Shown here: piece by piece, positions 1,606 to 45,882 of the stretch
Position numbering within the stretch: position 1 is the first letter of the stretch
How the letters are laid out: the number at the start of each line of letters is the position of its first letter
Source of the DNA: Rhodamnia argentea
Taxonomy: Eukaryota; Streptophyta; Magnoliopsida; Myrtales; Myrtaceae
DNA: 64,000 bases
Reading direction: 5' to 3'
Assembly (NCBI RefSeq): GCF_020921035.1
Contig: NC_063155.1
Location: forward strand, 29,009,294-29,073,293
Notes under the pieces: model-generated
Seen by the model: only the letters and a program-made list of their open reading frames with translations
The model's database searches: none
What the model was told of the DNA's origin: nothing
Program-made: the position numbers and the translations under genes

Positions 1606-4600
1606 TTACACTAGTCTACCGTGAGCATTTGAGCTTGTGTCGGAGGTCAATGAAGATAACTTAACAGGTACAGCTTTTTCAGGATCACTTGGTTTCACTT
1701 TCTTTTCACTCTGGCGCTTCGACTTATTCATAGCCTGGTCCGCTTTTGAGACGATTTTGGAAACCGTAAATCCCGCAACCTCGAATATTTGGGATCTATG
1801 GGGAATTAGTGAGTTGCGGAGGATGATATCAACTCCGTCGTATGACCAAACCCCTAAGAGTGCCTCTCCTCTTAATCCAATGGCAAACCACCCAAGACCA
1901 GCAGCTGCAACATCCACAGAACTTGCATCCCAGCTGTTACCACTTACACGAAATTCCCTTCTCACCCATTGTCCGAGCTCTTCCACTCGTTTTTCACCAA
2001 TTGGTGGCTGGCAAAGGCATTCATAAGATGGTCACAAAAATTGTACCTAAAATCTAGCTTGCAATAAAATACTGGAGGAGGAGACCCTCTGCCACGCACA
2101 GCGCTCCCATTAGTGTCTCAACCAATTCTCGATTGTTGATGTACGTACATATAGATATGCATCAATGGTTGAGATATATTGGGACAACCGTGGGAGCGCT
2201 GTGGTGTATAGAGGATCCACGTCCAAAATACTGGAGCTGCTGTTCTCACATGAGCTTGACGCTAGAATGCAAGGTAGGAAGAGGAAAACTTGAGTTCATT
2301 ATATTTCCAAGAAAAACAGTGCCCTCAAAGACAAAAATCAGCATTGCATCTGCTATATAATAACAAGTTATGGAAGATGTATGGGCAGAAATGAAGACTT
2401 CGAGGCATTCTAGCCAGATGCAAAGAACTTGAAGTTTGGCCAAATTAAAAATGCGCTCATTCATGTGATTATTGTTTCAAACGAGGAAACAAAGATGAAG
2501 AAGAAGATGAAAGCCCAAACAAATCAATTCCAGCCATGTTCAAATTGGCTCTTAGAGCTCAACTTGCTTTAGAAACCATCGACTATTTTTCAATTTGTAA
2601 TGGGTCCAGCAATACTCAAAGATAAAGTGAAGTACTTTTTTCCACAAATAAATTGTTGAAGAGAGTGGCTTCAAAGTGAAAGATCTACCTGCAATTGATG
2701 ACCAAAATGGTCTTCTACCATTGTACGAGCATGTTCTGTTTTCCCCATGTGCAGTGGGAGATAGGGAGACGCCCATACAGTAACATAAACTGAATCTACA
2801 GACGATTCTTCAATGTCCAGCCTCATGAGGCCAGCAATATGAATTGAATGACCTGCCTGTCATGAGAAAAGAGAAGCACATGAACCTTACAAGCATGACG
2901 CAAGCTTGATTAAGTGTCGTGTCAAGACCCTGAGTAAGCGAATTGTTTCTGCTTGCTTTGGTTATTTTAATGATGCAGAAATCCTAAGCACCTTCATTCA
3001 ATCGGCAACAATTTAGGGTAAGCATTATCCCACTAACACCTTCAACCAGTTAACTAAAAATAATGTCAAGAGCAATGAAGACATAATGCTTATGGGGGAA
3101 AAAGGGTAGACATACATCATTCATCAAACTACACCGTTTTCTCCAACGTAGCAAATGCTCGTCAAAGGTCTTGCACTGTTCAGTGTTCAGATAGCACATC
3201 GACCTTACACAAAATAAATTACTAGCCCCTTAAAGAAGCTCAAAAGAATTCCCAACCTAACATTGTCCAGAATGAGGATTTACACTTCACCGAACGCTCA
3301 GTTGATTGCTTCGCGAATATATTCGGATTCGCATTCACATTGACGCATGTTCCTTGTCATTGCAGAGAGAATGAAATCTAGCACTAGCTACATAATCCTA
3401 CATGTCTAAGCATGCTTACCTTAATTCTGTAAGTCCTTGGCCTGAGCTCCTTACTGACATAAACGAGCTTCTGCTCTTCCCTGGTCAGCCTGGTCGTGAT
3501 CTGATGCGGATTCAAAAGCCCTGGTGTATCAAACAACTTTGCCTTACCCGGCAGAATTCCCTCGACCCTAATAATTCCCAGCGTGGTACCGGGCACTGGT
3601 GCCTCTGTCAAGTGGGTAACTTTCCCCCCTTCAACATGCTTCCCGATTGCATTAATCAAAGTACTCTTCCCTGCATTTTGCGCGCCGATCGCCCAGACAT
3701 TCCCTCTAGGCCCAGCCAAAGCAATGACATCATCTGCAAGATTCTTTAACCCCCAATTCCTCACTGCGCTCACCAAATGCAAACTCGTGATTTTGATCAC
3801 CCCGTTTTCCCTAGCTCTCTGCCTCACCCAATGCTCGAAGCCAGTGGGCGATATGCTACTGGGCAACAAATCAATCTTCGTTACCACCAAAACTACTCTA
3901 GGCACATTCCCTGATTTCTTCTCCTTCCAAGCAGTCAAATTCTCCTCAATCGTTGTCGAAACCAGCTTTGCCACCTTCTTTGGGAACGACCCGTCGAAAT
4001 CGGCCGCATCCACCACCATCAACACGACTGACCGTGTCCCCGTTGCCGAAGCCAGCTTCCTCCCGACCGTGTGATCAAAGTCGAAATCCGGCAACAGATT
4101 CTCGACAGTCGGATCTTTCACCTTCCCGTAGTGCCTCAGGGAGTGGCACCGGGCGCAGACCACTGGCTTGTCGTCCGAATCAGGGCCACCGCCGGGGCTT
4201 TCGTCGTCGTCGACGAGGAAGCCCCTTTTCAAGGAATCGGAGAACTCGGGCTCCTGAGAGACGGGCGTGAGGTGGGCATCGAACAGGCGGTAATGCTTGG
4301 TCTTGGGCGAGGGTTTCGTGAAGTAGCCGGGGTGCCTAGAGTTGGAGTCCTGCATGTGGACACCGCAGCCCGGGCAGACCGCGTGGCCCGGAGTGGCTTC
4401 ATCGTAATTTCCATCCCGTGTCAGGGGCAGAGACGGAGGCGATTGCTTTTGCGCTTCTGTCGCTGCGGGCAGGGACGCGAAGAAGGCGGTGGAGAGGAAG
4501 GGTGGGGTTGTTGCTGCGTCGTTGGGGCCTTGAAGGATCGGGGAATGGAGTGATGGGGAAGAAGATAGAGGTGGGGAGACGAGGAATCTGAGCTTTGAGA

Positions 4601-4637
4601 CAGACGAGTTCCGCGTCCGACGAATTACCGTTAGCAT
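1606..4637 (-). CDS. BPG2-like circularly permuted GTPase (YqeH/NOA1 family), organellar
   Basis: Three exons read on the minus strand: 4637-3420, 2856-2689 and 2007-1606, all phase 0 with GT/AG borders, giving 595 residues. The start is the ATG at 4637; the open frame upstream has no other ATG. Residues 1-60 are Ser/Arg-rich and acid-poor, like a plastid or mitochondrial transit peptide. Two CxxC pairs (C88/C91 and C161/C164) form the zinc-binding region of the YqeH class. The GTPase motifs occur in permuted order: G4 TKID (253), G5 SAV (290), G1 GAQNAGKST (318), then G3 DTPG (370). The C-terminal part (DVAAAGLGWFAIGL) matches the conserved BPG2 tail. Family members assist ribosome assembly in plastids or mitochondria. 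The length fits the shorter of the two Arabidopsis BPG2-type paralogues better than BPG2 itself. The exact organelle is inference. Confidence 0.93.
2066..2236. mobile_element. Hairpin MITE-like element inside the GTPase intron
   Basis: An imperfect inverted repeat of roughly 60 bp arms around a short AT-rich loop (TACGTACATATAGATA). Each arm contains CACAGCGCTCCCA or its complement. The hairpin (about 2078-2224) is flanked by a 12 bp direct repeat, AAAATACTGGAG, at 2066-2077 and 2225-2236, which looks like a target-site duplication. It lies in the second intron of the GTPase gene (2008-2688). A miRNA precursor is an alternative, but neither arm matches a miRNA I recognise. Confidence 0.6.
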
Positions 4638-4905
4638 TTGCGTCTCTGTCGTCGATGGGCTCGTGTCTATGGCAGAGAGGGGTTTTTGCTCAGAGCAGAG
4701 GAAGATGCAGCGCGAAGGGTTTAAGGAAAGGAAGATGCGGACGGAGGCAATGAGCACCGAACCGATGAGGTCCGACCGAAGTAGAGATCGAGCCGGACTA
4801 CTCGGGTTTGGATCGGTGGTTTGATCCGAATGGACGCGCTGGATTTCGGAAGTCAGTTCGGTCTAGTCAATACTCAAACTCACCCTCCGTGGACAAATGA
4901 ATTTA

Positions 4906-6562
4906 TGGGGTTTTTTTCCAATTTAATTTTTTAAAAATAAATATTTACGAATTTTGGTCTCGCTCGGCAGTTGGGCTGCCGAGGGGCTGGCCTGGCCAGC
5001 ATGGCTGCTCGGCGGCCCATTACTTTTTTTTTTTATTTATAAATTTCATTTTTGAAGTGTTTTAATTATTTATATTTATAATATTTTCGTATTTTTTAAC
5101 ATGTTTATATTTATTTTATTTATAATTTTTTTTGTGAAGCTTATCTTTATAACATAATTAGTAATAATTAATACAAAAAATTATTAAGATCTATAATTCA
5201 TAAATAATGTTGTAATTATGTAATTAATTGAAAATATTCACATAAGGAAAATCCTCAATACCAAACGAAAAGAAATCCTAGCCGAAGTATAAAAAATAAA
5301 GCCAAAAAAAAAAAAAATTTGGGGGCAACCCCCCACGCAAATTTATTCGCATTGCAAAGGAGATTTGTTCGCTTGCTCTCCGCGTCACGAACCAAATCTC
5401 AATTTTTCCTCCATTTTTTGGGCCGCACAAAAATATGTCGGGTCGGGTCATAAACCGGACCGGGTACATAAAATTCAAGACATATATTAACAATATATGA
5501 AATTAATTGAAAATATTCATAATATAAAATTAGTAAAATATTCATATAAATAATGTTGTAATTATGCAATTCGGTCGGCTAAAAAGATTGAAAGAGGGAA
5601 ATGAGGATTCATTTAATATCGAGAAGTAACACCGAAGGGAAAAAAAATACAAAATTGACAAGGAAAACGGCTGTTTTCCCACACAAAAAAGAAAAGCCCG
5701 GCTTTTTCCCAAAAAAACGCCGTTTTCCTTGTTAATTTTGCATTTTTTCCCTTCGGTGTTACTTCTCTATATTAAATGAACTTACCTTTCCGTCTTTCCT
5801 CTTCTTTCAATCTTTTTAGCCAACCAAATTGCATAATTACAACATTATTTATATGAATATTTTACTAATTTTATATTATGAATATTTTCAATTAATTTCA
5901 TATATTGTTAATATATGTCTTGAATTTTATGTACCCGGTCCGGTTTATGACCCAACCCGACATATTTTTGTGCGGCCCAAAAAATGGAGGAAAAATTGAG
6001 ATTTGGTTCGTGACGCTGAGAGTTGGGCCGATAGGCCCAACTTGGAGCAAGCGAACAAATCTCCTTTGCGATGCGAATAAACCCGTGTGGGGGGGTTGCC
6101 CCCGGTAAAAAAAATTTTGGGCTCTATTTTTTATATCGCGGCTAGAATTTCTTTTCGTTTGGTATTGAGGATTTTCCTTATGTGAATATTTTCAATTAAT
6201 TACATAATTACAACATTATTTATGAATTATAGATCTTAATAATTTTTTGTATTAATTATTACTAATTATGTTATAAAGATAAGCTTCGCAAAAAAAATTA
6301 TAAATAAAATAAATATAAACATGTTAAAAAATACGAAAATATTATAAATATAAATAATTAAAACACTTCAAAAACGAAATTTAAAAAAAAAAGAAGTAAT
6401 GGGCTTGCTCGGCAGTTGGGCAGCCGAGCAGCCATGCTGGCCCACAAGGCCGGCCGCTCGGCAGCCCCACTGCCGAGCGAGGCCCAAATCCGTAAATATT
6501 TATTTTTAAAAAATATTTTTGTAAATATTTATTTTTAAAAAAATTAAATTGGAAAAAAATCA
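4906..6562. mobile_element. 1.66 kb foldback element, nearly all inverted repeat
   Basis: The left arm (about 4906-5671) and right arm (about 5719-6562) are inverted copies of each other around a loop of about 47 bp. Matching landmarks include the GC-rich block with GCTCGGCAGTTGGGC near each outer end and the same short open frame (MLIYVLNFMYPVRFMT) mirrored at 5493 on minus and 5905 on plus. The termini are TGGGGTTTTTTTCC on the left and the complement of TGATTTTTTTCC on the right. A 7 bp direct repeat, GAATTTA, sits at 4899-4905 and 6563-6569. The right arm carries about 25 extra bases near 6020. No transposase was seen. This fits a non-autonomous foldback DNA transposon. Confidence 0.85.
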
Positions 6563-6568
6563 GAATTT

Positions 6569-7119
6569 AGGCCGTGTCTCTTTAAAATAATATTTTTTAA
6601 ATTTCTTGACATTTGATTCGCAAAAAATAAGTTAATCAAGAAAATATTTTTCACTCATAAAAAAGTAACTTAAAAAATAAGGAAAATGTTTTCCTCATCG
6701 TTCTTCACTCGACTCCTTCACATTCATTTTCTTTTCATCATTTACTTATTTATTTTTCTTTTCTTTTATTTCTTTTTTATTTTCGAGTTTATTTTAGTTT
6801 GTTAAATATTTAGTTTTAAATTTTTGTAATCTTTTCTTCCTCTATTGGTTGCTGGCTACGGCGATAGCCAACGATCGGTAAAGCAAGGCACGAGCTCACC
6901 CAAGTTTTTTAAAAAAGATAAAAACAAAATAGCTAACAAATCAATTTTTTTTAAAAAATAAAAAATTATTAAAATGTGTGTACAGCAACAACTGATTTTC
7001 CTTACCAAACAGCAAAAAATATTTTTCAATTATTTTCAGGCTTCGGTCAAACATCGAAAAATATCATCATTATCTTGAAAGACAACTTCCTGAAAAATAT
7101 TTTTTAGAAACGTCGCCTT
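6569..7119. mobile_element. Candidate TIR MITE, about 550 bp
   Basis: The left end (AGGCCGTGTCTCT followed by AAAATAATATTTTTT) and the complement of the right end (AAGGCGACGTTTCT followed by AAAAAATATTTTT) are similar, as for a short TIR element. The interior is AT-rich with no coding potential. A related right end occurs at about 25510-25640. No clear target duplication was found, so the boundaries are approximate. Confidence 0.5.
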
Positions 7120-7848
7120 AACTTTTATTACGTAGAAAGAAGCATGAGAACGTTAAAACTACTAAATTGGGTGGTGGAATCCTTTGTCAAGTGCCTTTCA
7201 ATTCTCCTATTAATTTTCCAAAATATTTCTTTTTAAATGAAATAACAACTCATTAGCATCTCTTTCTTCGCACAACAATTGAAAAAGCAATGCCAGCTAA
7301 TTCTCATTAGCTGAGTCGGACAAAACTAACAAAAAGACTTGCGAATTTGATAAATTTAAAGACTTAATTATACTTTTCAAAGTTTTAAATGTCAACTGTA
7401 CTTTTTTAATGACATTTCAAGACTTTTAGTATACTTATCCTCTCTAAAATGCCTACAAGCGCGGAGTTTTTGCTCAATCTAACTTAACTTCTCTTGTTCT
7501 GTTTTAATGCGCGTAACCTTCGACGCACACGAGGTCGGAAGCGGGCATAATGTTTTAGGCGCTTCAAGCGATTTTTTTGTTCTATGTTCTATACTGAGAA
7601 AATGCTGAGTCCCGAAAGCGATTCGAGTCCGAAAAATTAATTCTTTTTGGCGTCATTTGTCTGAATACTGGTCTTCAAATGCTAGTTGCTTAGCCCGAAA
7701 TAATTATGTTACAGACATCATACATTAAGACACCCACGACACGAATAAGCTAAGCCTTTCTCCCGTGGGATTAAGTAAAACCGCTCGCAATTGCACCTGC
7801 TAGCGGAAAACTGGTGAGCCTCTCTTACCGACTAAAGCAAGCTTTGAG
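7120..7848. other. Intergenic, 3' side of SINAT gene
   Basis: This is AT-rich sequence between the MITE and the SINAT stop codon. I see no gene, RNA or repeat. The 3' untranslated region of the SINAT gene should occupy the part nearest 7848. Confidence 0.5.
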
Positions 7849-10443
7849 TCACGAGTAATAGCCGGCTTCTATATCACCATTCTTCCATATGCGGCCGGCG
7901 ACCTTGAGCTTCAGTTCCTGTCCGTTGCCACCAGAAAAGGACATTGCCAAGGTTCTGGGGATTATTAGACCATCCAGACTATCTCGGACTTTCCTATGGC
8001 TATCTCGAATGCTCCTTGGAATGCCTTGCCATATTAACCTTCTACGATTCCCCCCGACTTCGAGGCTGTAGCTGAACTGCTTCGCTTCATCCTCGTTGCC
8101 CATAAAACGTAGGAAGGCCATATAAACAGGAGCCATCTCGAGCTGAAAAGCCTCAAAGTGCAAGCAAAATTGTCGACCAAAACAGTTGAAGATCTGCACC
8201 AATAGAAGATTTATGCGGTTCCTTGTTATTCTTGGCATTAGGGAATGCGGTTGCCCGAAGTTGAAAATTAAAAAACCTCCTCCCTTTTTACCTACTTCAT
8301 ACCTTTAACTCTAATTTTGCTCTAAAAGATGAAGAAACTAGTGGTATTTGGAATTAGATAGGCTGCCACTTTACATGGCGTGAATTTTACTTCGAAGGAC
8401 CAACTATAAGCTGAGGCATCTATAAAAAATTTATATGTCTAGGAAATTATCAGCCTTTGCAGAGTGATTTTGCTATCTGCCAACAGAATTTAAGATAAAC
8501 AGTGTGCCCAATTATTAGTAGTACTCCAGACAAATAATCAGATAGATGTACAGCACTAATCACTACTTATCTTTTTCATGCTCAGATATCAGGCAAACAA
8601 CTAAATAGTAGGAACTTATAGATACACTGAATTGACACACTCAAGATATCTTTTCCCCCTTCTGAAAAATTCATGCACCACCTAATCGCTCATTAAATTT
8701 GCTGATACGCGGTTTCAAACATCCTCAGCCACATCTTGAAATTTTCATAACAAAAACGACAGGTAGAGAGAGGGAGAAGTTAGAGCACTTACAGTCAACA
8801 TCCATGTAGCATTCTCGACTTCTCGTGGATTGGATTTGACATATCTGTGGTTAAAGGTACATCCATCATGCATGTCAACATTGTGATCATCCTTAAGATG
8901 CATGACAAGAAATGGGATGTCACCAGTAACAGAACAATCGGCTCCAGCATAAGGGCAAGCATAGGGACGATGTTTGCAGTTCTTTTCATGCTTAAGCTTG
9001 CTGTAGTACGGAAATATGCCCCTACACCCTAGAAGCTGAAATCTGCAAGGGAGTTCTAGGGATTCTGCTACTTTTTCTAGCACCAAGCATCGTATATCTC
9101 CAAGCTCATGGCGACAAGTTGGACATAGGTTCTCGAGTTTGGTCTTGCAGCTTGAACATATAGTGTGGCCATTTGGACACTGACAGAATTAAAGCCAAGT
9201 AGATTGTTAATAGCTAGGAGCACCCAACCTATTCGAATTTGAATTGAAGCAGTAAATGAAAACCTGACAGTCCCGTCCTCATCCCTCAAAACCCCTCAAA
9301 AGAAGTCCAATTTGAATTTGAATTTAAGCAGTAGCGTAAGTACCGTGACAATCCCACCCTCATCCTCAAACCCCTCAAAGGAAGTCCAATGATACTGCTA
9401 AGTTTAGGGGATGTGCAAACAATGATAAACCATTCAACATAATAGCTGTTGATGTGCAAATTCAACAGCTCCTCAAGGTGCTGGTATAGACCCTGGATGC
9501 TTGGAATCTACACACGCAATGCCACATACAAATAAGTCACCAAGCTTCGCCCCACAGGGATCCAACGCTTAAGCTGGTGTACATGTTTAAGCGGGAAAGG
9601 AGAAGCAAGTGAGCATTTAGAGACAGGGCTATCGTATACCCTGGCAAGTACATAACCAAGAAATTTACGGAGAAGTTTGATCCTAACTTGACAGCCGTAG
9701 CTCTTCGGGCAGTCTTACGAGCCCATATGTTTTATGGGCCTCCATTTACACAGTCTTTATAGTGGGCAATTTAAGGACCTCTATTGCGCATTTCTTTTTC
9801 TTTCTTAACCGACAAAAATAGCATGGGTTAAAATCACTAATATGTAGGATTCTACTGATTTTTACGATCTTGAATGTAGCTTTTTGACACAATTTTATTG
9901 CTTGAGATTAAGATGACAAAACCAAGTGATTGCAATATTCAAATCAAGATTTAACAACTTTGCCTATACCACTCAAATTTGTGCAACAACAGAGTGACAC
10001 TGTAGCAACGCCATTGAACATAAGTTCTGCTGAACCGAGGTTTCTTTCTTGTCCTTAAGAAATGTGAATTAAGATTGCACTGAATTCTCAAATCTGACTT
10101 CTGTGTGATGGAGAAATTAGATGCCTCCTTTACCCACAAATCTCAGACTAGTTGCAAGTTTTTTGCTATTTCATCGTAAGACATCGAAATGCCTCATAGT
10201 AAAGGAGCCTTTAAGTGTATAGTAGTTTGGAAACAGGAGATTTACCTGGTAAATGGGAGGGTACATTAAATTTATACAAACGGGACATTCAAGCAGATCG
10301 TGCACATCCTCATTTAAGGGTGTCCATGCACTTCCTCCCAAGCCTGTGGCAATTTTTCCATAACTGGCCCTTCTCAACAGCAACTCTGATGATGCAGTAT
10401 CATGATCAGTAAATGAAGTTTGAGAGCCAGGTATATTACTCAT
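7849..10443 (-). CDS. SINAT-type RING E3 ubiquitin ligase
   Basis: Three exons on minus: 10443-10246, 9179-8793 and 8193-7849, all phase 0, giving 309 residues, the usual SINAT length (about 300-330). The ATG at 10443 is chosen because a stop lies in frame just upstream. The RING finger spans about residues 53-88: CPVC at 53-56, then C67, H71, C74, C77 and CPTC at 85-88. The SIAH-type zinc fingers follow (CRGIFPYYSKLKHEKNC, then HDGCTFNHRYVKSN). The C-terminal substrate-binding domain includes FCLHFEAFQL and SIRDSHRKVRDS. These proteins are RING E3 ligases that form dimers and target substrates such as transcription factors and autophagy or hormone signalling proteins for degradation. The N-terminal 50 residues are diverged, as usual in this family. 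Which SINAT orthologue it is cannot be decided here. Confidence 0.95.
9230..9390. repeat. Imperfect tandem duplication, about 80 bp, in SINAT intron 1
   Basis: Two adjacent related segments both contain AGCAGTA, a run of CTCATCC, CCCCTCAAA and GAAGTCCAAT. The two copies differ by scattered substitutions and small indels. The repeat lies inside the 1.07 kb first intron of the SINAT gene and is not expected to be coding. Confidence 0.75.
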
Positions 10444-15936: not shown

Positions 15937-16009
15937 GGGGATGTAGCTCAGATGGTAGAGCGCTCGCTTAGCATGCGAGAGGTACGGGGATCGATACCCC
16001 GCATCTCCA
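15937..16009 (+). tRNA. tRNA-Ala (AGC)
   Basis: A complete 73-base tRNA without intron. The acceptor stem GGGGATG pairs with CATCTCC, with one G-U pair. The D arm GCTC...GAGC, anticodon stem CTCGC/GCGAG and T stem CGGGG/CCCCG are all intact. The anticodon loop TTAGCAT gives AGC, which is read as IGC after editing and decodes alanine. The discriminator base is A at 16009, and CCA is not encoded. A run of eight T follows at 16016-16023, as expected for polymerase III termination. Confidence 0.96.
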
Positions 16010-24738: not shown

Positions 24739-25514
24739 ACAGCCAGGAAGACCACTGACTAGGAACTGAGTGATATACCCAAGAAATGCTTAATTAATTA
24801 TCACGAACGATCGTTTTTGTGGTGATATTATCTTGAAGCATGGTATGGTGCTGGTGATGTATGGCGGCTGCATTAGCGCTAGTGTTTCGCCGGCATGAAC
24901 TCGGAGTGATATTCGCGTTAAACCTAACTCGATCAATTAGCAGCTTGGAAATTGCGGAAAGCAATCCCAGGAATGTGAATAAATTAAAGCAAATGGTGGT
25001 TTAGTGTGGTTATCACTAGGCGTATTATTATATGAGAGGATATTGCATGCAATACATGTAAGTTTCGGAAGCATTCGGGGTCATTACAAAAGCTAAAATC
25101 GAATTTGCTTCCACTTAAGCGCATGATTAAGATAAGATGAACCTCATAGCTCTACTCGTAGGTTTGCGATGCACATGCCACGTGTACGGCATTATGCTGA
25201 TCATTGTGCTTTGGGAGATAAGGTCAACGATATCTTTTAATTTTTAGCTGCAAATTTGTTTATAACAATGTAGGTTTGGGTGAAAGATCAGAATTCGAAC
25301 AATTACACGTAGGATAAGTTAGCTGATTCGTTGACACTCCAATACTAAGGAAAAAAAATATATTATCCTCATTTGTAATCACAAGGCCTTCATGAAGCCC
25401 TTCTAAGAGCAAAGTATATGAGACTGAAGACAATGTTCAGGATTTAGCATCCCGATGAAACAACGACATACGAAAAATCAAATGAGATTTTCCTTACGTA
25501 ACGATGAAAAAATA
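24739..25514. other. Peroxidase upstream region
   Basis: This is AT-rich and carries no gene. It should contain the peroxidase promoter. The part after 25490 begins the MITE-like right end that is duplicated in the next feature. Confidence 0.45.
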
Positions 25515-26324
25515 TTTTTCACTTCATTTCAGGTTTTAGCCAAATATAAAAAAATGTTGTCATTTTCTTGGAAAATGAAGTTTTGAAAGATGTTTTTCAA
25601 AAAGGTCAAATTTTCGGCAAAACAAACGGAGCATAAAGTTCTATCCATTTGTCAATGATTGAAACTAAATTCGAGGGTGTATAAGCGCGCATAAGCTTGT
25701 CACATGGTTCGTTGGGCTTGTACTCCGTGGATTAACCATGCTGAATTTTTAGGGGAAAACTATAAAAAAAAAAGTCTTAAATATATTGCCTTGGTATCAA
25801 TTCAGTCTTAAACCTTTTAATTAGCCCAATTTAGTTCTAAACCTTTTGCATCCGACCATTCTTGGCCGAAAATCGTTAACGTGTACATTTTTTAATAACT
25901 TTTTTTAAAAAATTAAAATTTTTCACTTCATTTCAGGTTTTAGCCAAATATAAAAAAATGTTGTCATTTTCTTGGAAAATGAAGTTTTGAAAGATGTTTT
26001 TCAAAAAGGTCAAATTTTCGGCAAAACAAACGGAGCATAAAGTTCTATCCATTTGTCAATGATTGAAACTAAATTCGAGGGTGTATAAGCGCGCATAAGC
26101 TTGTCACATGGTTCGTTGGGCTTGTACTCCGTGGATTAACCATGCTGAATTTTTAGGGGAAAACTATAAAAAAAAAAGTCTTAAATATATTGCCTTGGTA
26201 TCAATTCAGTCTTAAACCTTTTAATTAGCCCAATTTAGTTCTAAACCTTTTGCATCCGACCATTCTTGGCCGAAAATCGTTAACGTGTACATTTTTTAAT
26301 AACTTTTTTTAAAAAATTAAAATT
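25515..26324. repeat. Perfect 404 bp tandem duplication
   Basis: The 404 bp unit at about 25517-25920 is repeated directly at about 25921-26324. I found no difference between the copies when reading them side by side. Markers 404 bp apart include ACTTCATTTCAGG at 25521 and 25925. The unit combines a MITE-like right end (GGCAAAACAAACGGAGC), about 110 bp of unrelated sequence and the left part of the TIR element below. The junctions share only a few T, so microhomology-mediated or slippage duplication is plausible. Confidence 0.92.
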
Positions 26325-26700
26325 TTAATTATTCCTTTTATTTCATTTGGGCGAGCGAGGTGATGAGGGCCCTAGGCGAGGCCACATTTGGCAAGGGTTT
26401 GCTAGCACTCGCACGTGATCGGCAAGGGTTGGTTGGCCCTCGCCCGGTGGTCGGCAATTCTCGTTGGCCAAAATGAAATGAAAAAAAAAAAGTTTAATTC
26501 TAATAAAAAGATTATTTAAAATGTTCGCGCCATGTAGGACGGCGGGAGTTCACCTTAGCAGTTGCCGGCCAAAATTGATTTGGATGGACTAAATTGACAC
26601 AAATACAAAAGATTTAGAACCGAATTGGTCTAATTAAAAAGTTTATGACTGAATTGACACCGATGTAATAGGTTGAAAACTTTTTTTGGTACTTTTCCCC
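26157..26700. mobile_element. TIR element (544 bp) with 8 bp target duplication
   Basis: The left terminus GGGAAAACTA and the complement of the right terminus GGGGAAAAGTA begin inverted repeats over 100 bp long, sharing phrases such as TCAATTCAGTC, AAACCTTTT or AAACTTTTT, and GGCCGAAAATC or GGCCGGCAAC. An 8 bp direct repeat, ATTTTTAG, flanks it at 26149-26156 and 26701-26708. The centre is GC-rich, and no transposase is encoded. An 8 bp target site fits hAT-like or Mutator-like non-autonomous elements. The 404 bp duplication has copied its left end upstream (from about 25753). Confidence 0.82.
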
Positions 26701-32560: not shown

Positions 32561-33420
32561 TTCGCACTTTTGCTAATTTTGTCTTATTGACAAAAAATTG
32601 CTGACGTGGACGCTCAGCATCCTATGTGGTCTTGCCGGCGTTGGTGTGGATAATTATAAATAATATGTATAATATCGAATATTTATATTTATGTTTTTTT
32701 TATGTGTTTATTTTTTCCTAGTTGCGGCGCCGGTGGTGGTTGACGCCCTTGCTGCCCATCGTCGGAGGGGTTGGCAGAGGTCGCCGACCCCGTGCGAGGG
32801 CGCCCACTTCTAGTCAACCATCGGTCGCCCAGGGCGAGGCCTTGTTGGCCCTCTCCCGAGGCTGTGAGCTTTGCTAGCCCTAACGAGGCTTCGGCGGCCC
32901 CAAGTGAGGGTTGGTGGCCCTCCCTAACATGGGAAAGCGTCGACATCATCTAGATTTAGACGTCCTCGCCCGGGCTGGCCGGGCCTTGGGCAGGAAAGAC
33001 CTCACCTTGGCCTAGCAGAGGGCTGGCTACCCTCACCTAAGGCCGGCAACCTTTGTCGGCTCCTCTATCGATGGGCGGTGGTGGGCCGGTGCGGTGGCAG
33101 CCTCCACTAGAGCAGCCATTCCTTACGTTTTTAGTTTTGCTTGTTTAATAAAGTTTTAGGTTTTCTTTTTTAGTTTTTAATCTAATTTAAAAACAAAGAA
33201 ACAAAAATAAAAATAAAAATAAAAATATTATTGAAAATTGTCCACGTACGTGCCGGCAATCCATGTCAGCAATTTTATGTCAAAATTAGCCTGATGGACT
33301 GAATCGGCAGAACATGAAAATGTTTAGGTCTCAATCATCAAACTTAAAAGGTTTAGGACTAAATTGGCAAAAGTGCAAAAGGTTTAAGACTTCTTATGCA
33401 ATTTTCTTGATTTTTTACGT
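32561..33420. mobile_element. TIR-family repeat with GC-rich core, block 1
   Basis: The outer parts carry the family phrases seen at 26157-26700 (TTTAGGACTAAATTGGCA, TGACGTGGACG, GCCGGCAATCC). The core is long and GC-rich with repeated GGCGAGGG and GTTGG motifs. A related element is at the same place in block 2 (41280-41860), so the insertion predates the block duplication. No coding sequence. Confidence 0.6.
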
Positions 33421-33700
33421 TAATGAATATGCAAAAGGTACCTTTTTATCATGGATATGGGTTTTAGAAATTTAGTTATAACTTTAAATTTTAGATGTGC
33501 ATCCTCCCAGAGTTAGTTAGCACAGTAGATAAATCCCATCGAAAGCCTATCTCTTATTTGATCGGATTCTATCATTGGCTCGGAAAAGGAAACTACATCT
33601 TTTTCGTGGTGTGTCCAGATCTTATAAATTATTAGACTCCTCCTTTGGTTAGTGAAGAGTCTGCAAAGTTCCTTGCCTGCGATCGAGTGTTCACGAAAAC

Positions 33701-34864
33701 ATGAGTGTTCAACAGGCAGATTGGGCATCTCTTCCAGGAGACATTATGGATACTATTTTGAAGAAGTTGGGATCGTTTGATGAATACTTCCGCGTCGGCC
33801 GGGTATGTATGTCGTGGTTTTCTTTTGTCAAGGATCATACAGAGTTTAAGGAGTTATCGCGCAAACAAGCTCCGTTATTAGTGATTCCAGCGATAAATAA
33901 TCGTCGAGATAGACGTAATTTGTACAGTGTGATAGATGGCAAGACTTATGGTGTGCAAGTAATTTTGCGCTACAATAGAAGATGTGTCGGCTCTAGCCAT
34001 GGATGGTTGGCGACCGTGGGAAGAAAGATGGTTATAACCCTCACGAATCCATTCTCGCAAAGACAAATTCGTCTTCCTCCGATATTCAATCCTCCCAAGG
34101 GAGACATCACAAAAGGCAATCCTCATTGCTTTTATTTGTGGGTTTATAAAGTTATTATGTCTGATGATCCAGATCTGTGTCCGGAAAATTGTGTGGTGGG
34201 AGCGATTTACAGTGGGTTTGCTAGATTAGCATTTATCAAGTTGGGTGATGAATGTTGGACTTACGTGGACATGAATCTCACATTATTTACCGATATTATA
34301 TTTTCTCGCAAATTATTGCATGCAGTTGACAGATATGGAAAGCTCATATCTGTCGACCTTAGTATCGACTCATATGTCGGGGAAAATGAAGTAGAAGTCA
34401 TTGTGCCGCGTTGTATGCCAAGGCAGTCAGATTTTGCATACATCGTCGAATCGCGCAACGGAAACATACTTATGGTTCGAAGATTTCTGGTGAAGCAACC
34501 GGAGCACAAGGATCTTTACCTTACCAGAGAAATTAGGGTTTTCAAGCTTAAAAGGAATTCAAGCGCGCGCTCAGGGTGGATTGAGGTTAAGAACCTGGAC
34601 GGGGAGTCCTTATTTGTCGGAGATAGTCATTCGACATCACTTTCTTCTTCAGAAATTCCCGGGGTGAAGCCGAACTGCATCTATTATACGGATGATTACT
34701 TCCACGATGGACACTATCACTACAAAGAAGATGGACCTCTGGATATGGGAGTGTTCGATATGGACAATGGAAGCTTCGGATCACATTACGTTCTGGATCC
34801 TTCTCAGAAGCAATTTCCTCCTGCAATATTCATTACGCCGAGTTTCTCACATAATTTTCCTTAG
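33701..34864 (+). CDS. F-box protein with DUF295/KIB1-type C-terminal domain, copy 1
   Basis: A single exon of 387 residues. The F-box lies at about residues 8-45 (WASLPGDIMDTILKKL, then RVGRVCMSWFSF). The rest resembles the DUF295 beta-propeller-like region of plant F-box proteins (SSHGWLAT, ITLTNPFSQRQIRLPP, WIEVKNLDGESLFVGD, CIYYTDDYF, then MGVFDMDNGSF). Such proteins usually act as substrate adaptors of SCF ubiquitin ligases through SKP1; the target here is unknown. The paralogue at 42943 differs at about 35 residues by my count. The start ATG follows the motif CACGAAAAC, which is conserved in both copies. The reading frame is intact. Confidence 0.9.
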   Translation: MSVQQADWASLPGDIMDTILKKLGSFDEYFRVGRVCMSWFSFVKDHTEFKELSRKQAPLLVIPAINNRRDRRNLYSVIDGKTYGVQVILRYNRRCVGSSHGWLATVGRKMVITLTNPFSQRQIRLPPIFNPPKGDITKGNPHCFYLWVYKVIMSDDPDLCPENCVVGAIYSGFARLAFIKLGDECWTYVDMNLTLFTDIIFSRKLLHAVDRYGKLISVDLSIDSYVGENEVEVIVPRCMPRQSDFAYIVESRNGNILMVRRFLVKQPEHKDLYLTREIRVFKLKRNSSARSGWIEVKNLDGESLFVGDSHSTSLSSSEIPGVKPNCIYYTDDYFHDGHYHYKEDGPLDMGVFDMDNGSFGSHYVLDPSQKQFPPAIFITPSFSHNFP

Positions 34865-36130
34865 ATTGACTTTATAGTTATAAGCAATTATTTATATGGG
34901 AGATTTTCACCTCATCGAGAGACCTTTGTAAGTTTTTACTTCGTTTATCGCTCACTGTGTTTAGCTGCACCTTCAAGCAATCTTATAAAAAACTTAATTA
35001 CGCAAAATTATGTAAAACCCAGGAGCATAATTGTTGGGTATTTGATCCACAAATTTTCCTCTTCTCAGCAAGCCAAACAGTAATTTCACCGGGGCAGTAC
35101 TTCACATTATTATTTTTACTCATTAGATGACATTTTGGCTCATTGTGATGTTTTTTTTTAGCTTTTTTCTTTTGGTCTGGATTCATTGTGATGTTGAGAA
35201 TGCCATGTTTCTTTTTGTTTTTTTTTTTTAAACTTTTCTTGGCCAAATTATTCAAGCAGATTTAGTTTGATGGCGTATCGCATTGATTTTGTTGGAATTA
35301 TACTTGTGACATGTTTTTTACTTTTTCTTTTGTTTGCCGTCATTATGGATAGAGCTAGACTTTTAAGAAACTCAAGTGGGGCACTACAATTTCAATCTAT
35401 GGGGAATTCCTTGAAAAAAAAAAATGAAGGTATAATTTTAAGAAACTCTTGGACAAAAAAGCAAAATAGGTGGCATATTAATAGATGGGACCATGTTTGA
35501 CCTTCAAATTTTAAGTGAGGGCACTTTGCTAGTTACCCAAGCCAGAAAAAAAAAAAAAAAAACAGAAGAGGAAATTTGACACTAAAGGCAATTCCGTCCT
35601 ATCACACCTCCGGGTGTGGCGGAGACAAACCGGCTATACCGATAACGCGGGCGGCCTCGATGAAATTAATTTTGTGTTAAGGATTGTTTAGATTTTATTG
35701 CCTGCTCTTGATTTGAGAACTTTGTAAATAATAAAGTACGAAATAAATAACTTTGAATCTTTTAATTTAGAACAAAATGGCAACTAACATATACTAGAAT
35801 AAAAAACGATAAAATCAAAAGCTCCACCAGAAAATTTCGTCCGGCTACAACTCCGGGTGTGGTGCAAACAAACCTGCTGTAAGACATGGGTGTAATGAGC
35901 AATTCGAGTTGATTGAAACAGTTGACTTTTGGAAATGCCTAGCATGACCGTCCCACCAATTCTGACGGTGGGACGGTCAAACTCTAATCACAAACCCCTT
36001 TTTGTGAAATCGGATCACCTGCTGGTCCGGTTTCACCAAAAGGACTGCCAAATTTCTTTTTCTTTTTTTTTTTTAAATTGTAAGCTAAAATTAAAAAAAC
36101 AAAATTATAGGAGGATAATATCCAATTGAT
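34865..36130. other. Downstream flank of F-box copy 1
   Basis: 34865-35510 is duplicated downstream of F-box copy 2 (44107-44650). About 35470-35650 reappears inverted at 39841-39960. Two similar short segments, TCACACCTCCGGGTGTGG (35600) and CAACTCCGGGTGTGG (35847), recur within it. I see no gene. Confidence 0.55.
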
Positions 36131-40818: not shown

Positions 40819-42942
40819 GGGTTGGACTAACTAAACAGAAGCATCTCCAAATGTGTGTGATCTGACTGCCATGTGCCTACTCCGGCAATGAGCATGAAGA
40901 ACAAACACACATTTTGTGTTGTATTCGAGCTTGTAATGATTGCCAAAAATTTTAAAGATAGAAATTACCCAATTTCCTCTCCCTGAGGGACATCTTATTC
41001 TCATGGTCTAAAGTCTGTTATCTACGTACTGTCTGTGAAGTGAAAAACGAAAATATTGTTGAAGTTGGTAAGGGTCGACCCATTGCAAGATGTGTGACAC
41101 ACATGCATTGTGTGTTGTAAAATATCTGAAAAATATAAAAGCAAAAGCAAAAGCAAAACTAATTAATTGTAAGCGGCACAATTACTAAGAACAACTGGTC
41201 AAACCTCTTTTTACACTGACGATTCCATTATAAACAGCAATTAGAAACTAGTATAATTTTGAGAGAACAATTATTTTCGTTATTCGCACTTTTGCCAATT
41301 CAATCATAAACATTTTAATTTTACCAATTGAGTCCTAAATCTTCTCATATTTTGCCAATTGAGTCCATCCGGTTAATTTTGGCCGGAAATTGTTGATATG
41401 GACGTTGGCCATTCTACGTGGCCTGGTAAGTGCCGACGTGGACAAGTGTTAATAGTATTTTAATTTTCATCTATTTTATATTTTTATTTTCTTGGTTTTT
41501 TACCTTATAAGTGGCCAACGAGGGTATCATGGCTGCGTGCGAGGCCAGCCTCACCTAGATCTAACCAAGGTTGCCTCATCTGCGGCTGCGATAGCCTTAC
41601 CCAATAGTCGGCGAGCGCCCGGTGACCCGCACCGGCCACTTTAAGAAAAAAATTAATAAAAAGATTCGAATACATATTAACATATCATTAAAATTGTCCG
41701 GGTCGGCGTACACCATGCTACATAGGATGGCTATGCATACATTTTTGAATAAAATTGGTTAGAGAGACTCAATTGGCGGAACATGAAAAGGTTTAGGACT
41801 GAATGAAACAAAAATCCAATATGTTCTGGAATTTTCTGCTAATTTTCCCCACTTTTTTTCCTCTTTTTTGGTAGCTATTGATGCATTTTTCTACAGTTGC
41901 TCTACAAAATAAAAATTACCCCCAAGTACAAGTATCGCTATTGGTACTACATACCGCAATCCGAGCTTATGTTTTTCTTTTCCGAGACTTCTTATATTTT
42001 CCTTTAATACTATCTTTATGCTTCTCTAACATATGAAAGCTTTAGCTAAATAGAAATATCTAATGTGAAGGTGAAAATAAGGGTGAGCATCTGTCTGGAA
42101 ATCGGATTGGACCGAATCGAATTGGCCGGTTCTAGGCGGTTCCCGCAATAACTTGTCTGATTCTCGATTCCAGGTATGAAACATAAACTGCCTGGACCAC
42201 GGAGATCAAAGCAAACCAATATGCTTTATGTTTAATTCTTTTTCTCATAAATATTAAAGATGCTTGTGTTACATTTCTTCACGACAAAAAGTAATGACTG
42301 TAAATTTGTTTTACGTATACATGCACTTCTTTGTTATTTAACAAATATTGATACCATGCCATGTAATAGAGTGATGACTACAAAAATGGAAGACCAGTCG
42401 ATCATCAATTAGCGCTGCACTCCCAATTAGGTAAACATTTGTTTAACGCAAATTAAAGAATTAAGAACTCCGCCCTATAATAGATTTACGATTTTCTGGA
42501 CAATTTCTTTCGATGTTAATTATGTGATTTTTAAAGAAGAGATATTATGTTATTTAACCAAGCACCAATTAGTCAAGAGGGCTATTGCTACTGCCAAGTG
42601 CCAACCTTTTCTCAGTCCTTCACTGTCAAACGAGGTTGCGTTTTTAAGGTCACGAACACGGCGATTTTTCAAGATAATGAATATGCAAAAGCTACCCTTT
42701 TTACGTTGAATAAGGGTTTTAGAAATTTAAAATTTTAAATATACATCCTCCAATAATTAGTTAGCACAGTAAATAAATCACATCCAAAGCTTATCTCTTA
42801 TTTGCTCGGAAAAGGAAACTATATCTCTTAGAGATGTGTGCGGATCTTACTTAAATATCAGACTCCTATTTGGGTAAACAATTCTTTTGGTTAGTGAAGA
42901 GTATACAAAAGCTCTTGCCTGCGATCGAGTGTTCACGAAAAC
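40819..42942. other. Intergenic, block 2 promoter copy, TIR repeat and F-box upstream flank
   Basis: 40978-41280 repeats the DC1 copy 2 upstream region (32270-32560). 41280-41860 is the TIR-family repeat listed separately. 42080-42220 contains low-complexity segments with GAATCGAATTGG and CGGTTCTAGGCGG, resembling a common dispersed repeat. 42640-42942 matches the upstream flank of F-box copy 1. No further gene was seen. Confidence 0.55.
41280..41860. mobile_element. TIR-family repeat with GC-rich core, block 2
   Basis: The outer phrases CCAATTGAGTCC, TTTTGGCCGGAAATTG and TTTAGGACTGAATG match the family at 26157-26700 and 32561-33420. It occupies the same position between the DC1 promoter and the F-box gene as the block 1 copy, but the cores differ in length (about 580 versus 860 bp). 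No coding sequence. Confidence 0.6.
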
Positions 42943-44106
42943 ATGAGTGTTCAACAAGCAGATTGGGCATCTCTTCCGGGAGACATTATGGATACTGTTT
43001 TGAAGAAGTTGGGATCGTTTGATGAATACTTGCGCGTCAGCCAGGTATGTATGTCGTGGTTTTCGTTTGTCATGAATCATACGGAGTTGAAGGAGTTATC
43101 GCGCAAACAAGCTCCCTTGTTAGTGATTCCAGCGATAGATAATAGCCGAGATAGGCGCAATTTGTACAGTGTGATTGATCGCAAGACTTATGGTGTGCAA
43201 GTAATTTTGCGCTACAATAGAAGATGTGTTGGCTCCAGCCATGGATGGTTGGCGACCGTGGGAAGAAAGATGGTTATAACCCTCACGAATCCATTCTCGC
43301 AAAGACAAATTCGTCTTCCTCCGATATTCAATCCTCCCAAGGGAGACATCACAAAAGACAATCCTTATTGCTTTTATTTGTGGGTTTTTAAAGTTATTTT
43401 GTCTGATGATCCAGATCTGTGCCCAGAGAATTGTGTGGTGGGGGTGATTTATGATCACCTCGATAGATTGGCATTTATTAAATTGGGTGATGAATGTTGG
43501 ACTTATGTGGACATGAATCTCAAGGCATTTACCGATATTACATTTTCCCGGGGATTATTGCATGCGATCGATAGACATGGAAAGCTCATATCTGTCGACC
43601 TTAATATCGACTCATATGTCGGGGAAAATGAAGTAGAAGTCATTGTGCCACGTTGTATGCCAAGGCAGTCAGATTTTGCATACATCGTCGAATCGTGCAG
43701 CAGAGATATACTTATGGTTCGAAGATTTCTGGTGAAGCAACCAGAGCACAAGGATCTTTACCTTACGAGAGAAATTAGGGTTTTCAAGCTTAAGAGGAAT
43801 TCAAGCGCGCGCTCGGGGTGGATTGAGGTTAAGAACTTGGACGGGGAGTCCTTATTTGTTGGAGACAGCCATTCGACATCACTTTCTTGTTCGGAATTTC
43901 CCGGGGTGAAGCCGAACTGCATCTATTATACGGATGATTACTTCCACGATGGACACTATCACTACAAAGAAGATGGACCTCTGGATATGGGAGTGTTCGA
44001 TATGGACAATGGAAGCTTCGAATCACATTACGTTCTGGATCCTTCTCAGAAGCAATTTCCTCCTGCAATATTCATTATGCCGAGTTTCTCACGTAATTTT
44101 CCTTAG
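42943..44106 (+). CDS. F-box protein with DUF295/KIB1-type C-terminal domain, copy 2
   Basis: A single intact exon of 387 residues, the same length as copy 1 at 33701, with no indels in the coding region. The F-box is at about residues 8-45. The C-terminal domain is nearly unchanged, including WIEVKNLDGESLFVGD and YYTDDYFHDGHYHYKEDG. By eye the proteins differ at about 35 of 387 sites (about 91% identical), clustered around residues 30-80, 139-151 and 190-255. Both synonymous and replacement changes occur, and the frame is open throughout, so both copies are probably functional or only recently released. Expected role: SCF substrate adaptor; target unknown. Confidence 0.9.
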   Translation: MSVQQADWASLPGDIMDTVLKKLGSFDEYLRVSQVCMSWFSFVMNHTELKELSRKQAPLLVIPAIDNSRDRRNLYSVIDRKTYGVQVILRYNRRCVGSSHGWLATVGRKMVITLTNPFSQRQIRLPPIFNPPKGDITKDNPYCFYLWVFKVILSDDPDLCPENCVVGVIYDHLDRLAFIKLGDECWTYVDMNLKAFTDITFSRGLLHAIDRHGKLISVDLNIDSYVGENEVEVIVPRCMPRQSDFAYIVESCSRDILMVRRFLVKQPEHKDLYLTREIRVFKLKRNSSARSGWIEVKNLDGESLFVGDSHSTSLSCSEFPGVKPNCIYYTDDYFHDGHYHYKEDGPLDMGVFDMDNGSFESHYVLDPSQKQFPPAIFIMPSFSRNFP

Positions 44107-45882
44107 ATTGACTCTATAGTTATAAGCAATTATTTATATGGAAGATTTTCACCTCATCGAGAGAACTTTGTAAGTTTTTACTTCGTTTATCACTCACTGT
44201 GTTTAGCTGCACCTTCAAGCAATCTTATAAAAGACTTAATTACGCAAATGATGTAAACCACAGGTGCATAATTGTTGGGTATTTGATCCACAATTTTTCC
44301 TCTTCTCTGCAGCAAGTCAAAGAGCAATTTCACCGAGGCAGTACTTCACATTATTTATATGCTCAGACATTTTTGGTTCATTGTGATGTTGAGAAGGCAA
44401 TGTTTTTTTTTTTTTCACTTATGCAAGCAGATTTAATTTGATGGTTTATCGCATTGATTTTGTTAGAATTATACTTGTGACATGATTTTTACCTTTTTAT
44501 TTTGTTTGTCGTCATTACGGATAGAACTAGAACTTTAAGAAACTCAAGTGGGGCACTATAATCTCAATCGATGAGGAATTTCTTGAAAAAAAAAAATGAA
44601 CTTATAATTTTAAGAAACTCTTGGAGAAAAAAGCAAAACAGGTGGCATGTTGATGGACATCGCGAAATTTCAAGTTGGTTGGCATATCATAACTTTCCTA
44701 TTTTGAATTGAATTGATTGATTGTTATCTTTTTTTTATAGAATATATCCGTTGCATGATGTAATTTTTTTGAAAACTCTAAAAAGATTGCATTCATCCAT
44801 TGCCATGATTAAATTAAAATTACAACTTTAAAATAGGAATTGTAGATAATTGCATACTTAATCTCTCTTGTAAATATTTACGTTAGATTGTACTTTTATT
44901 CAAAATTACATCTCTGAAATGGTAAGTCATGTTTAAAATACTTAATCTTTAATAAGTTAGGGTTTAGAGCAATTTAAATCCTAATTTTTTGAGAAATAAA
45001 GTATTTTGGTATAGTTTTACATAGGGTCATAAATTAATCCGAAAATGAATAATTCACCATTGCCATGTCATATACATTGCATTTAGAAAAAATTCATGCA
45101 TAGCATATAGTTTTGTCTTTCGTTATTTCATAAATCGAAAATAAAAAATAATTGCCTGGCGCATGCTCTTTGCAAACCATTGAATGCTTATTGTTATTTT
45201 AACCGATTGTGCACCTATGTGACCACCTTTGTTAGTGATCTAGGTTAAAATTTCATCAAATTTGCTAGACAAATTTTTTCATGATATAAAATGGTATCGA
45301 AAGGGCATTAATTGAAAAATTAATGTAATCAAGTCCCCGGACTCTTAATCTCCGATTTGTAGAAGTAATTTAGTTATGCTGCTAATTTACTTATGTTTCA
45401 ATCAACCTGCCAAAAAATGATTAGTGGCGACTCCGAAAATTAAATCTTTTGCCTAATGATCACTTGAACAATAAGTCATGATTTGGTATGACTTGAGAGA
45501 GTTCGAGCTAAGTTAATTAAGCTCATTAATTAATTTGGTAATCCATTAACCTAAAATTGAAAATCTTAATTTTAGATCGCGACAGAGGGCACTCCTTAGT
45601 TGAATAACTGCGTTGGAGGGTATGCTTACTTGTTTCTATTCATATTCGTACTTCTCTCAACTAAAGTTTTCGAAATGTTCGATTTTCCTATGCGTCTTTT
45701 TTTTCTTAGTTTTGATTCTACGAGTTCTCTCTTTGGTTGGACATAGGGATTTCTCTTGCTAATTATACTTGGATTCTCCTGTAGCATTATGCAACTGATT
45801 GACTTACATTAGGTGTCAAATTGACTTACTTTGCAGAAATTAAGACACGTGTAGTGATTCTAAAGTCAATGCCGTTGTCCAA
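44107..45882. other. Intergenic, AT-rich, end of duplicated block
   Basis: 44107-44650 matches the downstream flank of F-box copy 1. After that the sequence is AT-rich without a gene. Around 45420 and 45580 are TGGCGACTCC-like and ATCGCGACAG motifs of the sort found beside gypsy-type LTRs, but I could not delimit an element. Confidence 0.45.

Follow-up and report, generated by a model that had tools for sequence, protein, structure and literature searches.

Background

What kind of sequence is the long hairpin that lies between a GTPase gene and a SINAT gene of Rhodamnia argentea, and how did an element arise that consists almost entirely of its own inverted copy? The window, i.e. the whole stretch of 64,000 nucleotides analysed here, covers positions 29,009,294 to 29,073,293 of the forward strand of contig NC_063155.1 (C6 in the following) of assembly GCF_020921035.1. 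An earlier note, made from the letters of the window only, had described a foldback transposable element at 4899..6569, made up of two inverted arms with a loop of less than 50 bp and flanked by the 7-bp direct repeat GAATTTA. We have aligned the arms to each other, searched the genome for further copies and compared these with a large relative carrying transposase domains.

Sequences and searches

The genome searched was the 346.66-Mb assembly with its 74 contigs. Using the left half of the element as query, at least 160 matches were obtained; 40 of 594 candidates were scored, and the counts are therefore lower bounds. The 37 stretches that were fetched are chosen match clusters among the matches listed, the window's own included, and individual loci are referred to by L numbers where they have to be told apart. 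The arm tree was based on 48 of 50 arm instances, as two arms shorter than 550 letters (one from L017 and one from L028) were omitted, and several foldbacks, L030 included, are represented in it by one arm only.

The palindrome and its limits

Inverted alignment of the two arms of the window element (4926-5677 against 5714-6514) gave 703 identities in 817 columns, 81 of which were gap columns. This corresponds to 95.5% identity over ungapped columns, with 23 transitions and 10 transversions. The local score was 574.5, while none of 20 single-base shuffles exceeded 14 and the reversed and direct-orientation controls reached 22.5 and 23.5, respectively; the inverted repeat is real and far above chance. 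A 22-bp perfect inverted repeat (4911-4932 / 6538-6559) carries the arms further towards the ends of the element. The earlier note had asked for an arm-to-arm alignment, since identity limited to AT-rich tracts would have spoken against a true palindrome. Identity is found outside such tracts as well: complementarity reaches 98% over a stretch of 220 bp (5376-5595 / 5803-6022), and the arms can also be aligned, with gaps, in the GC-rich block.

The predicted RNA folding of the element has an energy of -1120 kcal/mol, against -319 to -328 kcal/mol for three block shuffles, and the central axis organises 736 of the 760 pairs in the predicted fold. Most of the element consists of two long inverted repeats separated by a short spacer, as in a foldback element, and the long hairpin described earlier holds as a near-perfect palindrome with a loop of 36 nt. 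An Rfam scan of the window at gathering thresholds returned a single tRNA gene (15937-16009) and no described RNA family within the element.

The outer limits needed correction. The seven matching bases of GAATTTA are real, and they form part of a degenerate 9-bp duplication, GAATTTATG on the left and GAATTTAGG on the right. The palindrome itself stands, and the element proper is 4908-6562. The parts of the element and its two neighbours are listed in Table 1. Within the right arm alone, a direct repeat was found (22 bp, spacing 29).

Table 1. Features of the foldback element and of the adjacent genes (positions in the window)
Feature	Position	Strand	Remarks
Foldback element, probably Mutator-like (MULE)	4908..6562	+	1655 bp; bounds from the family terminal inverted repeat GGGTTTTTTTCC...GGAAAAAAACCC (here ...ATCA) and the target site duplication
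Left 9-bp target site duplication GAATTTATG	4899..4907	.	8/9 identical to 6563-6571
Right 9-bp target site duplication GAATTTAGG	6563..6571	.	one mismatch to GAATTTATG
Left terminal inverted repeat GGGTTTTTTTCCAATTTAATTTTTT	4908..4932	+	exact family terminus; C6:29014201-29014225
Right terminal inverted repeat	6538..6562	-	final bases TCA in place of CCC
Left arm	4908..5677	+	oriented as the left end of the 10-kb parent (1-434 + 630-about 1110)
Subterminal stretch with GC-rich block, within left arm	4926..5019	+	common to the family
195-bp deletion junction of the foldback lineage	5226..5253	+	parent 435-629 absent; C6:29014519-29014546
36-nt loop	5678..5713	+	kept from the parent's short inverted repeat, about 1090-1166
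Right arm	5714..6562	-	left arm copied in inverse
GTPase (MMR_HSR1) frame	3384-4862	-	from first Met 3384..4637; start inferred, hand-counted
SINAT, Sina zinc finger	8748-9188	-	domain match

The location between the 5' side of the GTPase gene and the 3' side of the SINAT gene agrees with the earlier note, as the matches to MMR_HSR1 and the Sina zinc finger are both on the minus strand. The element starts 271 bp upstream of the inferred first Met of the GTPase (4637), and a near-perfect long hairpin at this distance could matter for that gene.

Other repeats were observed further along the window. A 2-kb block is duplicated (33409-35485 and 42663-44657, 86% identical) and bears two reading frames of the KIB1-4 beta-propeller type, for which a weak F-box-like match was obtained. 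Furthermore, there is a 412-bp tandem direct repeat at 25511-26326 (99.8% identical), as well as a block of tandem repeats at 53856-54710, in which the units follow each other at about 290 bp and are 89-92% identical.

A family of foldbacks and its large relative

The search for other copies, proposed by the earlier note, revealed a family of hairpins in the same genome. With up to two mismatches allowed, the search for the terminal 25-mer gave 407 occurrences, 204 of them in forward and 203 in reverse orientation, while the reversed control gave 0 in both orientations. Target site duplications were evaluated in the 20 copies where both ends could be placed, namely 19 foldbacks and the one-armed L023, and most of these terminate in GGGTTTTTTTCC...GGAAAAAAACCC or near variants. 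With boundaries snapped to the terminal motif, and with the right end of L032 being uncertain, 13 copies have a duplication of 9/9, five of 8/9 (the window copy among them) and one of 7/9 (L030), and no match was found for the last one (L024). Single-arm forms exist as L023, which is 877 bp long and has an 8/9 duplication, and L012.

Two of the foldbacks on contig C4, L011 (11.68 Mb) and L013 (11.62 Mb), are located about 57 kb apart, have the target site duplication TACTTTAAA in common and are surrounded by similar flanks, i.e. they belong to a duplicated locus. Of the sites at which they differ, 5 agree within either copy and 2 are orthologous, while 9 are crossed and lie clustered around the centre; small as these counts are, the pattern suggests that the centre of the palindrome was flipped in one of the two copies.

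Thirteen of the fetched loci (L031, L033-L044) have about 3 kb or more in common, with the terminal repeat on one side of the stretch only. Extension of one of them, L033, led to a large element of 10,063 bp at C9:22225978-22236040, with the target site duplication GAAACTTTC on either side. On its minus strand we found the MULE domain PF10551 (7.3e-17), DBD_Tnp_Mut, i.e. the MuDR DNA-binding domain PF03108 (6e-6), the SWIM zinc finger PF04434 (6.9e-7) and the Plant mobile domain PF10536 (4.4e-18). These domains are split among three frames, either by introns or by damage, in this copy, the only large one that was fully read, and an intact transposase is therefore putative. A search of solved structures with the 550-residue transposase frame gave no matches at E 0.001. 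Eight further large copies, L017 included, have lengths of 10,184-11,076 bp, and each has a 9/9 duplication, taken as the best match at most 4 bases from each terminus, with all chosen boundaries on GGG.

One of these large copies, L017 (C9:15329543-15340002), is a 10,460-bp MULE with a perfect 9-bp duplication and a chimaeric left end, where an arm of the foldback lineage (about 99% identical to L022) is joined to parent 546 onward. Judged from this junction, L017 is an end swap between a foldback and a large element.

The feature in the window is very probably a non-autonomous foldback element of the Mutator-like (MULE) superfamily. Duplications of about 9 bp flank the window copy (8/9) as well as the large copies (9/9 in nine of nine), and a relative with the same termini encodes the MULE transposase domains PF10551, PF03108 and PF04434, in separate frames. 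The foldback transposable element of the earlier note is hereby narrowed down to a MULE by the duplications, the family ends and the transposase-bearing relative. It is likely that the window element was moved in trans by means of the transposase of the large element.

Origin of the arms

Both arms of the window element correspond to the left end of the parent, 1-434 followed by 630-about 1110, read forward and then backward. Each of the 13 large left ends (L031, L033-L044) has parent 435-629, whereas no match to it of at least 100 bp was obtained in 23 loci of the foldback lineage, one-armed and truncated loci included; L017 retains parent 546-629 within its large-element part. Searching the genome with the deletion-junction pattern gave 57 matches, which make up 33 loci: 24 convergent pairs and 9 singles. 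The members of a pair are 101-1736 bp apart, and as the pair of the window is one of the 24, there are 23 elsewhere. Among junction matches within 4 kb of each other, no arrangement other than the convergent one was seen. At least three of the nine single loci are decayed foldbacks (L019, L032, L049) and three are one-armed or chimaeric (L012, L017, L023).

The short-loop foldbacks have their centre within an inverted repeat that the large copies possess as well, a short one with about 20 bp per arm and an inner palindrome. All 13 large left ends contain the sequence of this central inverted repeat. In nine of them it folds end to end, and in the other four (L035, L036, L040 and L041) a different pairing of the central stretch has the lowest energy. 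The centre is at about the same spot in L009, L010, L011, L013, L015, L016, L024, L030 and the window copy.

Both arms copy one end of the parent, and the point where they join is a short inverted repeat that the parent already had; this suggests snap-back synthesis. The large element would lose its other end by a break or by abortive gap repair, the short inverted repeat would then fold back, and synthesis primed there would copy the surviving end. The product, having two identical ends, could be mobilised and amplified. We consider the chances of this route to be about even. In yeast, breaks beside inverted repeats are reported to give inverted duplications, with foldback priming (PMC10622511). 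A simple chromosomal snap-back would copy flanking DNA too, whereas the palindrome stops exactly at the terminus; an end of this kind may need, for example, an excised or end-nicked element.

Alternatively, the palindrome could stem from recombination between two large elements, or from two single-arm elements landing head to head. Single-arm forms do exist (L023 and L012), and in L017 ends have been exchanged between foldback and large elements. However, in the middle of the window copy neither a terminal inverted repeat nor a target duplication was seen. What lies there is an unbroken stretch of the parent's own short inverted repeat and the spacer belonging to it, and the centre has about the same place in nine foldbacks, the window copy included; this makes an origin from two elements unlikely.

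Snap-back at the short inverted repeat may have happened twice, because L030 has the same centre without the 195-bp deletion of the lineage. In this foldback, parent 435-629 is kept in both arms, and the single L030 arm in the tree is placed next to the large elements (support 91/88, not starred). The simplest explanation of these sequences is that foldbacks were born twice at this point; the alternative is one birth, after which 435-629 was lost in one arm and the other arm was converted.

The arm tree of the main lineage is star-like. In 12 two-armed copies the identity between arms is 0.94-0.99, about equal to the identity with the nearest other copy, as would be expected if amplification soon followed formation. 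Arm-to-arm gene conversion was considered as a general rule and is unsupported, since the two arms of a copy are mutually closest in only 5 of the 12 copies, the window copy not being one of these.

To our knowledge, the birth of a foldback transposon has seldom been traced to an identified parent. Here, the parent, the short-hairpin centre, the deletion-free L030 and the single-arm and cargo forms are found in one genome, and this makes snap-back and loop capture testable by comparison of copies.

Loops and cargo

The loop of the window copy matches the parent's own sequence, being the 36-nt spacer of the parent hairpin, and holds no cargo of the Pack-MULE kind. The earlier note had suggested that the GC-rich block in the arms could be a captured fragment. 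This does not hold: the stretch 4926-5019 recurs as terminal sequence in the family and aligns to the left end of the large element, so the block is family end sequence. Capture is seen instead in the loops of other copies.

The loop of L029 holds a fragment of an ascorbate peroxidase (Pfam peroxidase 1.5e-7, with ascorbate peroxidases among the solved structures matched). Its donor, C10:23962091-23962626, is 96% identical and was found once elsewhere in the genome, with no element sequence in the 3.5 kb around it. A more diverged foldback, L049, carries the same cargo (79%). The loop of L014 goes back to a single donor region, C10:23477882-23478580 (86-90% identical), and L018, L020, L021, L022, L025 and L032 have yet another loop in common, the length of which reaches about 780 bp. 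Cargo situated at the centre of the palindrome would fit a break-and-patch repair of a cruciform-prone centre.

Silencing potential

The window element and the large C9 copy have 121 exact 21-mers in common, compared to 0 for a control stretch of the window. In the C9 copy, the first 120 bp account for 13 of the start points and positions 121-1200 for 104; a further 4 lie elsewhere, and the last 120 bp have none. For the other large copies, the far 120 bp have 17-29 exact 21-mers in common with the window element in 8 out of 8 cases. Given these matches, any small RNAs that the hairpin might produce could be directed at the two ends of most of those large copies for which both ends were read. 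A transcript running through the element, e.g. from the SINAT side, would be predicted to form an almost perfect double-stranded RNA of 0.8 kb, for which the earlier note had proposed a role as source of 21-24-nt small RNAs, and by analogy with what has been proposed for maize Mu killer, this RNA could feed small RNAs directed against the ends of the large elements.

It has to be asked whether the element is a working silencer of this type, repressing the large MULE family and retained for that effect. Both of its ends come from one end of an autonomous element, as is the case for Mu killer (PMC3440606), and the 21-mers match the C9 copy (117 of 121 in the first 1200 bp) as well as the far end of every one of the eight other large copies. 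On the other hand, the arms (parent 1 to about 1110), unlike Mu killer, are without transposase-domain frames, which lie at about 5622-7979 of the parent, the right end of the C9 copy has no 21-mer in common with the window element, and many copies at varied sites in a state of decay are what is expected of a parasite. A retained silencer is therefore quite improbable, more so than an origin from two elements.

We also put forward, with clear reservations, a wider reading in which the large MULE is a 'foldback maker': its short inverted repeat about 1.1 kb from the end would give birth to palindromes repeatedly, the centres of which would be patched with foreign sequence. Gene capture and the production of hairpin RNA would then be combined in one Mu killer-like family that may restrain its parent. 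We hold this to be rather unlikely as a whole.

An artefactual inversion in the assembly, for which nothing speaks beyond the general risk attached to long inverted repeats, is extremely improbable as the source of the palindrome, because the arms are about 4.5% different, with indels and a direct repeat in the right arm alone, because the 24 convergent pairs have varied spacings, and because copies in other sites have 9-bp duplications of their own (7/9 or better in 19 of 20).

Comparison with known systems

Windsor and Waddell reportedly described FARE foldback elements of Arabidopsis in 2000. FARE, which is mentioned in PMC4486113 and PMC3169594, is a foldback with long palindromic repeats at both ends and is now classed as a MULE (PMC4486113). 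The likeness drawn here is one of structure; for the family of the window, the parent, and the origin of the arms from one parent end, are identified.

In Medicago truncatula, the MuTAnT elements (PMC4486113) are also non-autonomous MULEs that form hairpins, are flanked by 9-nt duplications and have a relative with a transposase. These MULEs have the termini GGGG/CCCC, the type element is 292 bp long with terminal inverted repeats of 144 bp, TA microsatellites are the targets and the relative has 4873 bp. The family of the window differs in its arms of about 0.8 kb, its assorted targets and its 10-11-kb parent with a Plant mobile domain frame.

Outside plants, the Tm1 Mutator/Foldback elements of root-knot nematodes (PMC3169594) resemble the family in having foldback-like terminal inverted repeats, 9-bp duplications, a MULE-type transposase and a class with cargo. 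The repeats of Tm1 are mostly short tandem repeats of 13-15 bp, and the host is an animal. MULEs with tandem long terminal inverted repeats (PMC3310237) are plant elements with duplicated ends that were then amplified; the extra repeats are placed in tandem at the ends, whereas here one end is inverted to form the whole element. Like Pack-MULEs (PMC8277862, PMC8903248), L029 and L014 carry genome sequence between their repeats, the difference being that the cargo is in a foldback loop here and that the window copy has none.

Foldback MULEs from plants and nematodes (PMC4486113, PMC3169594) and Mu killer have already been described, and the family, putatively a new one, is of a known kind. Among the papers listed in the literature searches, no title describes it.

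Among the systems compared, Mu killer of maize has the closest architecture. Both of its ends come from the same end of an autonomous element and are joined as an inverted duplication (PMC3440606), and both ends of the window element likewise derive from one end of the large element. The two differ in that Mu killer has sequence of the transposase gene and is described as a single locus, while no transposase-domain frames were found in the inverted duplication of the window, and the family to which it belongs, also without domain-bearing frames, is multicopy and mobile.
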